64,000 nucleotides of DNA from Burkholderia diffusa (GTDB lineage: Bacteria; Pseudomonadota; Gammaproteobacteria; Burkholderiales; Burkholderiaceae), in NCBI RefSeq assembly GCF_001718315.1, contig NZ_CP013363.1, positions 1,736,001 through 1,800,000 on the forward strand, given 5' to 3'. Of this stretch, positions 40,836 through 46,485 are shown one piece after another. The notes beneath the pieces were generated by a model, which was not told the origin of the DNA, did no database searches, and saw nothing but the letters and a program-made list of their open reading frames with translations. The number at the start of each line of letters is the position of its first letter. Position 1 is the first letter of the stretch. The position numbers and the translations under genes are program-made.

Positions 40836-41384
40836 ATGAACAAGAAGGAAGCCAAAACAAGAATCGCGGCGCTGCTGTCCGCGGGCGCGAGGAAAGCCGA
40901 CGTGCTGGCCGAACTGGCCGGACAGGGCCTCAAGGAGAGCGTGCTCGCGCGCCTGATCGCGTCACGCCCCGACCCGGAACTGTGCAGGAAGAACAAAGTG
41001 CATACCCGGGTCCTGATCGCGCTTGGCATCGCGCAGTTGTTGATCAGTCTCGCGCTCGCCTATCTCCTCCGGACGGAGGGGCTCAGCGCCGGCGCCGTGA
41101 TGCTGTTCCTCGCCCTGACGGTACCGCTGTCGCTGCTGTTCATCTGGGGCTTTGCAACCCATCGCGTCGGTGCGTATCACGCGTTCATCATTCTGTCGCT
41201 GCTGCAAGTGCCGAAAACTATCGCCGATCTCGGCCGCGATCCGTCGGCCGCGCTGCCGACCCTCGCGGTGACGGTCATCCTGGTCGGCTACGTCTGGTTC
41301 GTCCGCAACCGGCTGTTTCCGGACTTCGTCTGGTTGACGCCGCGCAAGGTCGAGGGTCGCTACGCGTTCGTGGAAAGCGCCTGA
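40836..41384 (+). CDS. Small membrane protein, unknown function
   Basis: 182 residues. A cytoplasmic N-terminus with repeated charged helices (MNKKEAKTRIAALLSAGARK, DVLAELAGQGLKESVLARLI) leads to four hydrophobic segments (VLIALGIAQLLISLALAYLL, AVMLFLALTVPLSLLFIWGF, HAFIILSLLQVP, LAVTVILVGYVWFV). Function unknown. The region before the ATG has AT-rich ATATATACGACAACC, a likely promoter zone. It ends in a shared terminator. Confidence 0.75.
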   Translation: MNKKEAKTRIAALLSAGARKADVLAELAGQGLKESVLARLIASRPDPELCRKNKVHTRVLIALGIAQLLISLALAYLLRTEGLSAGAVMLFLALTVPLSLLFIWGFATHRVGAYHAFIILSLLQVPKTIADLGRDPSAALPTLAVTVILVGYVWFVRNRLFPDFVWLTPRKVEGRYAFVESA

Positions 41385-41404
41385 CGCCGCCGCGTACCAT
41401 GAAA

Positions 41405-41448
41405 AAGGCGCCGGGCCGTTCCGCGATCGCGGAACGGCCCGGCGCCTT
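41405..41448. terminator. Perfect 44-bp palindrome, bidirectional terminator
   Basis: Arms of 22 bp without a mismatch (41405-41426 and 41427-41448), core CGCGATCGCG. On the minus strand a U-tract (TTTTTC) follows, and the entericidin gene reads into it from that side; on the plus strand TTCTGCATT follows. It separates convergent genes. Confidence 0.8.
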
Positions 41449-41470
41449 CTGCATTCCGGAACCCGGTGGT

Positions 41471-41605
41471 TTACTTGGCCTTCTCGGCCGTATCGCTAAT
41501 GGCCTGGCCACCCTTCGAAATGTCCTGCCCCATGCCTGCAACGGTATTGCAACCGGCGAGCGCGGCGGTCACTACCAGTAGCACTGCAGCAATCGTACGC
41601 GTCAT
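41471..41605 (-). CDS. Entericidin-family small lipoprotein
   Basis: 44 residues. A short signal peptide with the lipobox LAGC (MTRTIAAVLLVVTAALAGCN) is followed by TVAGMGQDISKGGQAISDTA, the entericidin A/B pattern. AAGGAG is about 8 nt before the ATG at 41605. It is a membrane lipoprotein, family-linked to stationary-phase lysis or envelope stress. Downstream lies the palindromic terminator. Confidence 0.9.
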   Translation of the reverse strand: MTRTIAAVLLVVTAALAGCNTVAGMGQDISKGGQAISDTAEKAK

Positions 41606-41776
41606 TCTCATTCTCCTTCGAGTCAACATGCCCGACCGGGCGAATCGTATGCGGCGTGGTGGCCTGCGGCGCGCAGGACACGGGGCCTGACCTGATTATA
41701 CGGAGACAACCGCCGCGCGCCAGTATCGGCCAAGCCGACGTGATGCAGGCCACACGCGCCGCCGCGCAGATTTTCC

Positions 41777-41820
41777 TTGACTTCAGCCGGCCGCGAACTA
41801 ATATACGCATCGCGTATATT
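41777..41820 (+). promoter_or_regulatory. pyrB promoter overlapped by a palindromic operator
   Basis: TTGACT (41777-41782), 16 nt, TAATAT (41799-41804). AATATACGC (41800-41808), ATC, GCGTATATT (41812-41820) is a perfect inverted repeat that covers the -10 box and ends 18 bp before the ATG. A bound protein here would block transcription. The HTH-carrying ATCase itself is the obvious candidate. Confidence 0.65.
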
Positions 41821-41838
41821 TTTCATCAGGTGCCGCCG

Positions 41839-43134
41839 ATGACCGTTCCCCAGCAAGCCTTCCTGCGCGACGCGATGCGCCGCCTCAACATGACCCGCGA
41901 AGCGTTCGCGAACCGTATCGGTGTAAGCCGTCGTGCACTGGATACGTGGCTGTTGCCCGACGATTCGCAGGAATCTCGCGGCATGCCCGAGATCGTCGAG
42001 CGCTTCGTGTCCGAAATCGTCGAACGCCCGGCACCGGAAGGCATGGACTATACGCAAAGCGTAGAAAAGCAGGGGCTCGCTAAGCAATTTCTGTTCGAAG
42101 GCAAGCCGCAGCTGATTTCCGTGGATCAGTTCTCACGGGATTCGGTCGAGGCGCTGTTCCGCGTCGCCGACGTGATGCAGCCGATCGCGCGCCGCCACAA
42201 GATCTCACGCGTACTCGAGGGCGCCGTGCTCGGCAACCTGTTCTTCGAGGCCAGCACGCGCACGCGCGTGTCGTTCGGCGCGGCCTTCTGCCGGCTCGGC
42301 GGCTCGGTGTGCGACACGACCGGCTTCACATTCTCGTCGATGGCCAAGGGCGAATCGATCTACGACACGAGCCGCGTGATGGCCGGCTACGTCGACGCGC
42401 TCGTGATCCGCCATCCGGAGAAAGGCTCGGTCGCCGAGTTCGCGCGCGCGACCAACCTGCCGGTGATCAACGGCGGCGACGGCCCGGGCGAACACCCGAG
42501 TCAGGCGCTCCTCGATCTCTATACGATCCAGCGCGAGTTCTCGCGGCTTGGCAAGATCGTCGACGGCGCGCATATCGCGCTCGTCGGCGACCTGAAATAC
42601 GGCCGCACCGTGCACTCGCTCGTCAAGCTGCTCGCGCTGTACCGCGGGCTGAAGTTCACGCTCGTGTCGCCGCCGACGCTCGAAATGCCCGCATACATCA
42701 TCGACCAGATCGCGACGAACGGGCATGTGATCGAGCAAACGAACGACCTCGCGGCCGGCCTGCGCGGCGCGGACGTCGTCTATGCGACGCGGATCCAGAA
42801 GGAGCGCTTCACCGACGAGTCGTTCGAGGGCTACACGCCGGATTTCCAGATCAACCAGGCGCTCGTCGACTCCGTGTGCAAGCCCGACACGCTGATCATG
42901 CACCCGCTGCCGCGCGACAGCCGGCCCGGCGCGAACGACCTGTCGGTCGACCTGAACCGCGATCCGCGGCTCGCGATCTTCCGGCAGACCGACAACGGCA
43001 TTCCGGTGCGGATGGCGATATTCGCGGTACTGCTCGGCGTCGAGAACCTGGTTCAACATTCGATGCGCGACGCGACGTGGCGCCCGCCTGCGTACCTCGG
43101 GCCGGAGGATGCGGTGTTTCACGGAATCGATTGA
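41839..43134 (+). CDS. pyrB: Aspartate carbamoyltransferase with N-terminal HTH domain
   Basis: 431 residues, about 120 more than E. coli PyrB. The catalytic part has all signatures: FFEASTRTRVSF (carbamoyl phosphate), SSMAKGES (the mobile Lys loop), EHPSQALLDLYTI and HPLPRDSRPGANDLS. It makes N-carbamoyl-aspartate in pyrimidine synthesis. The first 60 residues (FLRDAMRRLNMTREAFANRIGV, SRRALDTWLLP) look like an XRE-type HTH, then a linker MPEIVERFVSEIVERPAPEG. No pyrI gene follows. The start at 41839 is just after the operator-like repeat, which suits autoregulation. Confidence 0.93.
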   Translation: MTVPQQAFLRDAMRRLNMTREAFANRIGVSRRALDTWLLPDDSQESRGMPEIVERFVSEIVERPAPEGMDYTQSVEKQGLAKQFLFEGKPQLISVDQFSRDSVEALFRVADVMQPIARRHKISRVLEGAVLGNLFFEASTRTRVSFGAAFCRLGGSVCDTTGFTFSSMAKGESIYDTSRVMAGYVDALVIRHPEKGSVAEFARATNLPVINGGDGPGEHPSQALLDLYTIQREFSRLGKIVDGAHIALVGDLKYGRTVHSLVKLLALYRGLKFTLVSPPTLEMPAYIIDQIATNGHVIEQTNDLAAGLRGADVVYATRIQKERFTDESFEGYTPDFQINQALVDSVCKPDTLIMHPLPRDSRPGANDLSVDLNRDPRLAIFRQTDNGIPVRMAIFAVLLGVENLVQHSMRDATWRPPAYLGPEDAVFHGID

Positions 43135-43171
43135 CGCGCATCCGGTGTCGCGCGCAGACGTAACGCATACA

Positions 43172-43199
43172 ACGCGCCGCCTTGCACGGCGCGTTTTTC
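43172..43199 (+). terminator. Intrinsic terminator of pyrB
   Basis: ACGCGCCG (43172-43179) and CGGCGCGT (43187-43194) form an 8-bp stem with a 7-nt loop, followed by TTTT. It is 38 bp past the stop. Confidence 0.9.
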
Positions 43200-43349
43200 A
43201 TTTCGACGCGGATGATGCAGGGAGCCGCCAACCTCGCGTCAGCCGGCCCACGGATCGATCACGCGCAGGCCCGCAGCTTCGAACGGCTTGACGTCGTGCT
43301 TGCCGTCAAGCCCTCTGCAACATTCGTCAACATTCCCATCACAAACGCG

Positions 43350-43368
43350 AACAAGAACGCTTCTCATT
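43350..43368 (+). promoter_or_regulatory. Fur-box-like site upstream of the TonB receptor
   Basis: A 19-bp stretch (AACAAGAACGCTTCTCATT) matches 14 of 19 bases of a Fur consensus of the type AATGAGAATCATTCTCATT. It lies 114 bp before the receptor start, with AT-rich sequence after it. Iron repression by Fur is inferred. The remaining 43200-43349 holds nothing I can name. Confidence 0.6.
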
Positions 43369-43482
43369 TAACAAGAAATTACATAGAATGCCGGCTGAAA
43401 ACAAATCGTAATAATTCCCGGCGGCATGCACATTTCCGTTGCGAGTCGTTCCCGGGACCACACCGCGAGGTCGAAGCGCACC

Positions 43483-45726
43483 ATGAAGTCCCGTCCTGAA
43501 GAGCTGAAACTCGGCAAATTCACCACCCTGTGCAGCGTGCTCGCCGCGAGCCCCGCGTTCGCCGACGGCACGCCGCCGGCCGCCCCGGTCGGCACCGAAG
43601 GCCATCTCGCGCCGATCGAGGTCCAGGGCAAGACCGAGCACAGCTACAAGGCCGACTTTTCCGCATCCACGAAATTCACCGCGCCGCTCGTCGACACGCC
43701 GAAGTCCGTGACCGTGATCCCGCAGGAGCTGATCCAGAACAGCGGCGCGGCAACGCTGACCGAGGCGCTGCGCACCGTGCCCGGCATCACGTTCGGCGCC
43801 GGCGAAGGCGGCAACCCGCTCGGCGATCGTCCGTTCATCCGCGGCTACGACACGCAAGGCAGCATGTTCGTCGACGGGATGCGCGACACGGGCGCGACCA
43901 CCCGCGAGATCTTCAACACCGAGCGCGTCGAGATCACCAAGGGCTCCGACGGCGCATACGGCGGCCGCGGCGGCGCGGGCGGCAGCATCAACCTGATCAC
44001 GAAAGCGCCGCACCTCGGCACGACCGCGGCCGCGAGCGCCGGCCTCGGCACCGACCGCTACCGCCGCTTCACCGCCGACGGCAACTGGCAGTTCGCCGAT
44101 CACGCGGCGTTCCGCCTGAACCTGATGAGCCACAACAACGACGTCGCCGGCCGCGACGCCGTCAACAACGAGCGCTGGGGCGTCGCGCCGTCGATCGCGT
44201 TCGGTCTCGGCACGCCGACGCGCGTGACCGCGAGCTACTACCACCTGTCGACCGACGACATGCCCGACGGCGGCATTCCGTACTTCTACACGACGTCGAA
44301 CAAGCCCGCGAACGTCGACACGATTTATCCGGCGCCCGTCGATCGCCACAACTTCTACGGCCTGATCGACCGCGACTTCCGCAAGACCACGTCGGACATC
44401 AGCACGATCAGGATCGAGCACGACATCACGTCGAACCTCACAATGCGCAACACCACGCGCTACACGGAATCGACCCAGGACTACATCTGGACGCAGCCCG
44501 ACGACAGCCAGGGCAACGTGGTCAACGGCAAGGTCTGGCGTCGCAACAACAACCGCAACAGCTCGATCAACAGCCTCGCGAACCTGACCGAACTGTTCGG
44601 CGAATTTCGCACCGGCCCGTTCAAACATAGCTTCACGACGGGCATCGAGCTGTCGCGCGAATGGGGAAAGCGCGATTCGTACACCGTTGCGACCGACAAG
44701 GGCACGATCTGCCAGCAAGGCATCGGCGCGCCGTCCGGCTACAACTGCACGAGCCTGTGGTCACCCAACCCGAACGATCCGTGGGCCGGCGCCATCACGC
44801 GCAACAACGACTATGCGCATGCGCGCACCACCACCAAGTCGATCTACGGTTTCGACACGATCGAGCTCACGCCGCGCTGGCAAGTGAACGCCGGCGTGCG
44901 CGTCGACGACTACTCGACCCGCTTCACCGACACCCGGGCGAACGGCGGCAAGACCTACACGCGCGACGACACGCTCGTGAACTGGCAGGCAGGCCTCGTG
45001 TTCAAGCCCGCGCGCAACGGCAGTATCTATGCGTCGTATGCGACGTCGTCGACGCCCGCCGGCATGCTGCTGGGCGAAGGCAGCGAAACGCAATCGCTCA
45101 CGCCCGGCCGGGGCGGCGTCGGCTCGAACGCCGATCAGCTGTCGCCCGAGAAGAACCGCAGCATCGAGCTCGGCACGAAGTGGAACGTGCTCGACGACAA
45201 GCTGTCGCTGACCGCCGCGCTGTTCCAGATCGACACGACGAATGCACGCGTGACGCTGCCGAACAACCAGTACGCGATGGTCGGCAACAAGCGCTTGCAG
45301 GGTCTCGAGTTGGGCGTCGCCGGACAGATCACGAAGCAGTGGCAGGTATTCGGCGGCTATACGTACATGAAGAGCGAACTGCGCGACAACGGCAAGGATG
45401 CCGCGAACAACGGCCACCGGTTCCCCAATACGCCGAAGCACAGCCTGACGATGTGGTCGAATTACGACGTGACGCCGAAATTCACCGTCGGCGGCGGCGC
45501 GTTCTACATGTCGGAAGTGTTCGGCGATCCCGCGAACCTGCGTGCGGTGCCTTCGTACTGGCGCTTCGACGCGATGGCGCAATACCGGATCAACAAGAAG
45601 CTCGACCTGCAACTGAACGTGAACAACCTGTTCAACCGCACGTACTTCGATCAGGCGTACCCGGCGCATTACGCGTCGATCGCGCCGGGCCGCTCGGCGT
45701 TCGTCACGCTGAACGCGCGCTACTGA
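43483..45726 (+). CDS. piuA: TonB-dependent catecholate siderophore receptor (PiuA/Fiu-like)
   Basis: 747 residues, an outer-membrane 22-strand barrel with an N-terminal plug. Plug motifs: DTPKSVTVIPQELIQNSG, ALRTVPGITFGAGEGG, DRPFIRGYD, MFVDGMRD and YGGRGGAGGSINLITK. The C-terminus NNLFNRTYFDQ ... LNARY fits the barrel end. It imports ferric catecholates with TonB energy; PiuA-type receptors also admit siderophore-linked beta-lactams (established for Pseudomonas). Start at 43483 is 3 nt from its cotranscribed partner's logic: genes for Sel1 and PiuC follow. The gene symbol rests on context. Confidence 0.9.
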   Translation: MKSRPEELKLGKFTTLCSVLAASPAFADGTPPAAPVGTEGHLAPIEVQGKTEHSYKADFSASTKFTAPLVDTPKSVTVIPQELIQNSGAATLTEALRTVPGITFGAGEGGNPLGDRPFIRGYDTQGSMFVDGMRDTGATTREIFNTERVEITKGSDGAYGGRGGAGGSINLITKAPHLGTTAAASAGLGTDRYRRFTADGNWQFADHAAFRLNLMSHNNDVAGRDAVNNERWGVAPSIAFGLGTPTRVTASYYHLSTDDMPDGGIPYFYTTSNKPANVDTIYPAPVDRHNFYGLIDRDFRKTTSDISTIRIEHDITSNLTMRNTTRYTESTQDYIWTQPDDSQGNVVNGKVWRRNNNRNSSINSLANLTELFGEFRTGPFKHSFTTGIELSREWGKRDSYTVATDKGTICQQGIGAPSGYNCTSLWSPNPNDPWAGAITRNNDYAHARTTTKSIYGFDTIELTPRWQVNAGVRVDDYSTRFTDTRANGGKTYTRDDTLVNWQAGLVFKPARNGSIYASYATSSTPAGMLLGEGSETQSLTPGRGGVGSNADQLSPEKNRSIELGTKWNVLDDKLSLTAALFQIDTTNARVTLPNNQYAMVGNKRLQGLELGVAGQITKQWQVFGGYTYMKSELRDNGKDAANNGHRFPNTPKHSLTMWSNYDVTPKFTVGGGAFYMSEVFGDPANLRAVPSYWRFDAMAQYRINKKLDLQLNVNNLFNRTYFDQAYPAHYASIAPGRSAFVTLNARY

Positions 45727-45729
45727 TCG

Positions 45730-46485
45730 ATGGAAACCGTCTCGCTGAAAGCGCTCGCGTCGGTGTCGCCGCGCGCGTTCGCCGACATCCTCGCCGGGCC
45801 GCCCGCGCGCGCCGCCGCGTGGGTCGCGGCAGCCGCCGATAACGGGATCGTCGATGCGCAGGCCGTCTACGGCCAGTACCTGCTCGACGGGCACGGCGTC
45901 GCGCGCGATCCGGCCGCCGCATTCGGCTGGTTCCGGCATGCGGCGCGAGCCGGGCACCCGATGGCGATGAACATGCTCGGCCGATGCTACGAGTTCGGCT
46001 GGGGCACAGCCGCGTGCGCGGCGGTAGCGGTGTACTGGTACCGGCTCGCCGCGCAGGCCGGCCTTGATTGGGGCATGTACAACTATGCGACGGCGCTCGC
46101 ACTCGGCAACGGCATCGACGAGGATCGCACCGCCGCGCTCGACTGGTTTCGCCGCGCCGCCGCGCTCGGCCATGCGAAATCGATCAACCTGATCGGCGGC
46201 TTTTACGAGGACGGCTGGGTCGTGGCCGTCGATGTCGATGCCGCGTTCGACCACTATCGTCGCGCCGCCGAGGCAGGCGATTTTCGCGGCCAGTTCAACT
46301 ACGCGCGGCTGCTCGCCGATCGCGGGCGCGTCGACGAAGCCCTCGTCTGGCTCGCGCGCGTGCCGGCCACCGCCACCCCCGCGTTCGTCGCGAAGATGCG
46401 CGCGTATCTCGCGTCGTCGCCGCTCGATGCGTTGCGCGCGGCGGCGATGCAATTGCCGTCTCATGGCATGGAATCCGAATCATGA
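45730..46485 (+). CDS. Sel1-repeat protein of the piuA-piuC operon
   Basis: 251 residues of tandem Sel1/TPR-like repeats, for example [36 protein letters not shown] and [20 protein letters not shown]. Such solenoids bind proteins. No signal peptide is seen. It starts 3 bp after the receptor stop and overlaps piuC by ATGA, so the three are one operon. A Sel1-type gene next to piuA/piuC is also known in Pseudomonas (from memory). Confidence 0.92.

Follow-up and report, generated by a model that had tools for sequence, protein, structure and literature searches.

Aspartate carbamoyltransferase (ATCase) is a textbook allosteric enzyme, and PutA, BirA, and NadR are enzymes that regulate their own genes via a fused DNA-binding domain. 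The ATCase analyzed here is predicted to be likewise an active enzyme with a DNA-binding domain and candidate sites at its own gene, although both the enzyme and the fold differ from those of the three proteins. Gene-regulating enzymes are known as trigger enzymes, and PepA, described as the trigger enzyme of carAB, resembles the present case in that an enzyme on DNA controls the pyrimidine pathway; PepA, however, is an aminopeptidase that wraps the carAB DNA (PMC6245113). A DNA-binding and an enzyme domain are also combined in BzdR, in which the N-terminal DNA-binding domain is fused to a shikimate-kinase-like domain, but the enzyme activity of BzdR is described as lost, and the protein controls benzoate-degradation genes (PMC3602430). 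In contrast, the protein encoded in the window (the whole stretch of 64,000 nucleotides that was analyzed) has intact catalytic motifs, and its candidate sites lie at its own gene. Aca proteins are described as helix-turn-helix (HTH) repressors of anti-CRISPR operons, and AcrIF24 and AcrIIA15 as effectors with an autoregulatory function. Aca1, which has the HTH fold nearest to that of the window protein at a sequence identity of 21 to 25%, is a phage or mobile-element protein, as are AcrIF24 and AcrIIA15, and no kinship is claimed.

Bacterial ATCase types differ in what is attached to the trimer, i.e., regulatory dimers, dihydroorotase, or nothing (PMC4581275). The E. coli ATCase has an extra regulatory part too, but this part, PyrI, is a separate regulatory subunit that was not found in the genome of the window. 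Two ATCases have been described in Burkholderia, a long one (~430 amino acids [aa], HPLP) and one of ~340 residues (HPGP), and it was left open in the passages concerned whether one of them is catabolic (PMC4581275). The window protein is of the same type as the long enzyme, the extra ~90 residues of which are unexplained in the passages on it; the terms “helix-turn-helix” and “DNA-binding” have 0 occurrences in the main text of that paper. It is also a full-length member of NCBIfam NF008853 / PRK11891, “aspartate carbamoyltransferase” (430 aa), a family name that refers neither to an HTH nor to regulation. The self-regulating enzyme is a known principle; an ATCase example, be it an HTH-ATCase or an operator of the O1 type described below, was not met in the searches made of the open-access literature.

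The features of the locus are listed in Table 1. The initial annotation had placed the whole feature at 41777 to 43134; its end stands, whereas the stated start is where the −35 hexamer begins, the ATG being at 41839.

Table 1. Coordinates of the HTH-ATCase locus in the window
Feature	Position	Strand	Description or basis
−35 hexamer TTGACT	41777..41782	+	promoter scan
−10 hexamer TAATAT, overlapped by O1	41799..41804	+	promoter scan, sequence
O1, promoter operator (candidate)	41800..41820	.	perfect 9-3-9 palindrome AATATACGC-ATC-GCGTATATT; core TATACGC-NNN-GCGTATA at 41802-41818
HTH-ATCase gene	41839..43134	+	ATG at 41839, 431 aa plus stop
HTH domain (predicted), residues 1-62	41839..42024	+	AlphaFold model, Foldseek matches
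Variable linker, residues 63-88, with recurrent Y-T-Q-S-V encoded by O2	42025..42102	+	alignment, residue counts
O2, intragenic operator (candidate), TATACGC-AAA-GCGTAGA	42049..42065	.	one base off the core; 247 bp downstream of O1
ATCase catalytic chain, residues 89-431, with FFEASTR, RIQKER, and HPLP motifs	42103..43131	+	profile matches, alignment
Intrinsic-terminator-like stem-loop, beginning 37 nt beyond the stop codon	43171..43195	+	weak: 2 in the stretch versus shuffle mean of 1.0

The sole promoter-like site in 41600 to 43300 was TTGACT-16-TAATAT (41777 to 41804), which has 9 of 12 consensus bases (shuffle mean, 0.3). TTGACTT at the −35 position is common to many relatives and absent from others, e.g., L033, L040, and L044. 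If transcription begins some 7 nt past the −10 box, the leader would be only about 28 nt long. The gene is likely a single-gene unit, since a terminator-like stem-loop stands behind it. A frame opening at GTG 41656 (492 aa) was rejected as the gene start because a start codon is retained in relatives at the position equivalent to 41839, and further upstream their sequences diverge except for the promoter and O1. Divergent from the ATCase gene, a small lipoprotein-like open reading frame (44 aa by eye) lies on the minus strand at 41471 to 41605, and we take it to be entericidin-like. Downstream, a TonB-dependent receptor followed by a Sel1-repeat protein (43426 to 46485) looks like an unrelated uptake unit.

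The catalytic chain had been called complete, and profile searches agreed: NCBIfam PRK11891 (NF008853) covers residues 1 to 431 with 894 bits versus a cut-off of 560, TIGR00670 matches with 298 bits versus a cut-off of 237, and both Pfam carbamoyltransferase domains were found from residue 92 onward. The motifs FxExSTR, RxQxER, and HPLP, named as in PMC4581275, are kept in all 23 aligned sequences, which argues against a loss of enzyme activity. These data indicated that the window protein is a complete, motif-intact ATCase and a predicted enzyme.

The HTH-ATCase is not the only ATCase of the cell, since another contig of the same genome encodes an ordinary ATCase (C1:859232; 32% identity); it has an OTCase-like gene too, so named by likeness. 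A search for PyrI gave 0 matches in this genome and was positive in 7 of 14 control genomes, and Rfam gave no match across 41300 to 43400. Along with the short leader, these results are in line, as far as examined, with the earlier proposal that the enzyme acts instead of PyrI or attenuation. In other genomes of the order, the second ATCase mostly scores 127 to 148 bits with the NCBIfam model. The HTH form is the only strong match to that model in eight genomes of family f4 that were checked (G493, G532, G599, G628, G657, G713, G739, and G764) and likewise in the 1.2-Mb genome G010, each of them having one further match of 72 to 93 bits that we read as OTCase. Judged from these matches, the HTH form in those genomes should act in pyrimidine synthesis, provided that the cell produces pyrimidines; since no other ATCase was found in the eight f4 genomes, a biosynthetic role is favored.

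An XRE-type HTH had been suspected in the first 60 residues, and the predicted fold supports this. When the extra N-terminal 62 residues before the catalytic chain were modeled alone with AlphaFold and a 40-sequence alignment, a mean pLDDT of 86 was obtained, with helices at residues 5 to 15, 20 to 27, 31 to 37, and 51 to 62. Pfam HTH_3 stayed below its cut-off of 23 (14.9 bits with the whole protein and 18.2 bits with the domain alone), and 35 of 40 members match it at E up to 1. In the Foldseek search, the top six matches were Aca1 chains (TMq of 0.70 to 0.79), some of them complexed with palindromic DNA, and Aca7, a lambda repressor fragment, and HigA2 came after them. The E values for this short domain were weak (0.02 to 0.11 for Aca1), with 0 matches at E up to 0.001. 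A PDB sequence search by HTH profile returned nothing (best E, 0.25), and no second HTH of the same kind was found in the genome of the window (next match, E of 0.19). By this prediction, the N-terminal domain is a Cro/CI (XRE)-like HTH, and its nearest structures are HTH repressors. The full-length AlphaFold model was poor (pLDDT of 48), so no statement is made on assembly. A free-standing 85-residue relative of the HTH was noticed elsewhere (L202, G015:C2:485433-485627); it has another recognition helix, and no O1-like site was found in the stretch examined there (best, 5 mismatches), so this relative is of little informative value.

The palindrome that had been reported on TAATAT near the ATG is exact: the arms of O1 are complementary at 9 of 9 positions, and the site overlaps the TAATAT box, its last base being separated from the ATG by 18 bases. 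None of 100 shuffled versions of the window contained a match to O1, and a 19-mer of O1, at up to 2 mismatches, occurs at a single place in its own genome (6,857,833 bases), so a general promoter or repeat motif was ruled out. In a sample of 398 genomes and 25 genera of its own family, an HTH-ATCase protein match at E 1e-80 was obtained in 221 genomes and 9 genera. The exact 17-mer TATACGC-NNN-GCGTATA was found in 111 of the 398 genomes, belonging to 7 genera that are all among the 9 with the protein match; none was found in the 16 genera without an HTH-ATCase match, and the exact reversed 17-mer pattern was found in one genome (G348). Among the matches listed, 75 places with an exact site were compared by eye with the coordinates of the gene, 58 from the own genus (57/61 genomes) and 17 from genus g10. 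Every one of them maps to the HTH-ATCase gene, 73 upstream of it and 2 at O2 (one each in G181 and G332), and O1 as a regulon target was discarded, there being no other gene among these compared places. Genus g11, with 0 exact sites, proved to be no exception: all four loci fetched carry O1 with one mismatch.

Conservation was then quantified in sets of loci. The first 50, composed of the 30 best-scoring ones and 20 chosen for diversity, all have O1 at 0 or 1 mismatch. Among 149 HTH-bearing loci, O1 was present at up to 2 mismatches in 147 and at 3 in 2; in a thinned set of 67 loci differing by >8% of coding bases, 65 have the O1 core with 2 mismatches at most. L070, with a decayed HTH, was left out of both sets, and the loci are related, some genomes appearing twice, so that these counts are not independent. 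As a control, 150 palindromes with permuted half-sites, from which those resembling the true half-site had been left out, were searched for upstream of the genes, and they occurred in a mean of 0.03 and at most 2 of the 67 loci. They replaced a reversed-pattern control (at up to 2 mismatches, 24/67 thinned loci upstream and 1/67 inside the gene), which was judged unsuitable because, once shifted, the reversed palindrome looks like the true one. The center of the site, CGC-NNN-GCG, is identical in the 65 thinned O1 sites, save for one base in one site.

Family f4 yielded an HTH-ATCase protein match in 174 of 268 genomes, and the other 94 had none at E 1e-70. O1 was present at up to 2 mismatches in all 64 further loci examined in this family, comprising the 28 best-scoring ones and 36 taken across genera with listed coordinates (g76, g171, g450, and g479 are not among them). 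The palindrome, whose conservation in other Burkholderia had been raised as a check, is therefore kept far beyond that genus and tracks the HTH (65/67 thinned and 64/64 f4 loci). It extends to plasmids as well: O1 was found in all 4 loci fetched of 9 plasmid matches, two from Variovorax, one from Comamonas, and one from Burkholderia cenocepacia. Three HTH-ATCase genes (L204, L205, and L206) are carried by large plasmids from Variovorax paradoxus and Comamonas odontotermitis; upstream of each is a pair of operator-like sites spaced about 31 bp apart, of which the second is weak (4 mismatches) in Variovorax.

Beyond the family, 399 genomes of the order gave 25 matches, of which 21 have the HTH form (L070 counted). 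Of 15 matches in 369 genomes of the class, only that in the genome of the window has the HTH, and in the remaining 14 the match begins at residue 69 to 89. Within these samples, the HTH form was not seen outside the order. When the 18 HTH-less relatives (4 + 14) were scanned from 400 bases before to 600 bases after the match start, O1 was found in 0 of 18, the best sites having 3 to 7 mismatches. A tree of the catalytic part places the HTH-bearing rows in one group with an SH-aLRT value of 86, which is not a strong branch. Inside this group lies L074 (G449, a 2.0-Mb f4 genome), one of the 18 HTH-less relatives and a row without operator, whose place is unsure because of its long branch. Two changes are required on this tree, and the simplest account is that the HTH form was gained once and lost once. 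In L070 (G764, a 0.8-Mb f4 genome with a locus of 33% G+C), the HTH is degenerate and the recognition helix decayed, with GVSLHTLN for GVSRRALD, and no operator site was found at this locus. The match in G1369 (f4, g478) is far weaker than those of its genus mates (E 1.4e-130), possibly reflecting another HTH loss or a fragment.

A second candidate operator, O2, had been overlooked in the initial annotation; it sits in the codons for Y-T-Q-S-V of the linker. At up to 2 mismatches, O2 is present in 53 of the 67 thinned loci, whereas the 150 permuted palindromes never match at its place at that threshold. The codons that make up the site are strongly biased compared with the rest of the same genes: tyrosine is encoded by TAT in 50 of 53 cases versus 33% elsewhere, threonine by ACG in 55 of 58 versus 51%, and valine by GTA in 52 of 53 versus 4.8%. 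Codon choice was also scanned along the gene in 416 six-codon windows with enough data, scored without reference to the motif, and the top seven windows all overlap O2, within residues 69 to 80. Where the linker changes from Q to H or from S to R, the altered bases fall in the three-base spacer of O2. Since the O2 codons form the most constrained block of the gene, the DNA itself is under selection.

Outside Burkholderiaceae, O2 is often weaker, or a second upstream site is seen instead. Among the 64 f4 loci, just 20 have an O2 with no more than 2 mismatches. Four f23 loci, L068, and three Comamonadaceae plasmid loci have no intragenic O2; each instead carries two upstream sites separated by 30 to 46 bp, the poorer of which has 2 to 4 mismatches. 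Sites as poor as this occasionally arise upstream by chance, an extra one with 3 mismatches being present in 3 of the 64 f4 loci. Five thinned loci (L042, L043, L056, L059, and L063) had no second site even when 3 mismatches were allowed. The distance between O1 and O2 ranges from 232 to 276 bp (n = 53), with clusters at 243 to 251 and 254 to 263 and a few values near 236. This spacing is suggestive of helical phasing, but the phasing is loose (R of 0.41 to 0.47, n = 53) and confounded by kinship, for which reason looping is a guess.

Four other readings were weighed against repression of the gene by its own product. It is unlikely, in our view, that a separate transcription factor binds O1 and O2 while the ATCase uses its HTH as a structural domain for oligomerization, away from the DNA. 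HTH-like domains can indeed act as dimerization or docking units, and the Pfam HTH score lies under the cut-off; yet the site has one genomic place, whereas an independent factor usually marks its own gene or others too, and the site and the HTH were gained and lost together in the loci examined and stand together on Comamonadaceae plasmids. The ATCase might also activate its own promoter, or do so in one ligand state, as the weak −35 hexamer in some relatives (L033, L040, and L044) is reminiscent of activator-dependent promoters. We regard this as somewhat less probable still, given that O1 spans the −10 box and presumed start, where a bound protein normally blocks polymerase, and that the promoter of the window gene already has its 9 of 12 consensus bases without help.

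Two further readings question the sites themselves. Were O2 only a conserved protein motif (YTQSV) with an accidental likeness to O1, the fairly conserved Y, T, and V of the linker (53/64, 58/67, and 53/67) and the weakness of O2 in family f4 would be explained. The same cannot be said of the uncommon synonymous codons held there (GTA, 52/53), of a block that tops the whole-gene scan, of varying residues that are spacer encoded, or of the failure of all 150 permuted palindromes to match at this place with 2 or fewer mismatches, and we consider the coincidence very improbable. The poorest prospect of all is an RNA element, such as an attenuator or a leader hairpin, in place of a DNA operator: a 9-bp hairpin with a 3-nt loop is possible if the palindrome is transcribed, but about half of O1 is upstream of the presumed start, Rfam gave no match, O2 lies within the coding sequence, and the best site is further upstream in some f23 and Comamonadaceae loci.

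Repression of the HTH-ATCase gene by its own product through O1 and O2 is thus the reading we prefer, with a probability of roughly 0.8, the operators and the HTH being predicted. A conserved candidate operator is present at the enzyme's own promoter, and, by sequence and prediction, an intact enzyme and a DNA-binding domain are present in one chain. Direct binding, repression, and looping are what we infer from this arrangement, repression in particular from the position of O1 on the −10 box. The HTH domains of the oligomeric enzyme would pair and bind TATACGC-NNN-GCGTATA, and pairs on O1 would cover the −10 box and the presumed start and so block RNA polymerase. O2 probably strengthens repression, most simply because a single oligomer grips both sites and closes a loop of about 247 bp, or else by acting as a roadblock. 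Regulation by this circuit seems limited to a single gene. In transcarbamylases, the trimer is the basic unit (PMC4581275); an oligomer would therefore carry several HTHs, and bridging of two operators would come naturally. A bolder version, which we offer tentatively and hold to be rather doubtful, is that an HTH dimer replaces the PyrI dimer of E. coli, joins two catalytic trimers, and bridges O1 and O2. Carbamoyl phosphate or nucleotides had been named earlier as possible signals; in this version, binding of a substrate or a nucleotide would shift catalysis and DNA binding by one quaternary switch, and the substrate-saturated, active enzyme would release the gene.

Taken together, the analysis suggests that a whole lineage attaches a predicted DNA-binding domain to its ATCase, with matching operators at the enzyme's own gene. 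O2 represents a clear case of a candidate operator kept within a coding sequence by selection on synonymous sites. L070 and L074, along with the moved second sites, provide ready-made natural experiments in which the HTH was decayed, the HTH was lost, or the second site was moved. Moreover, a concrete function is offered here for the longer ATCase of Burkholderia, which bears on the question, raised in PMC4581275, of whether one of the two enzymes is catabolic or not.
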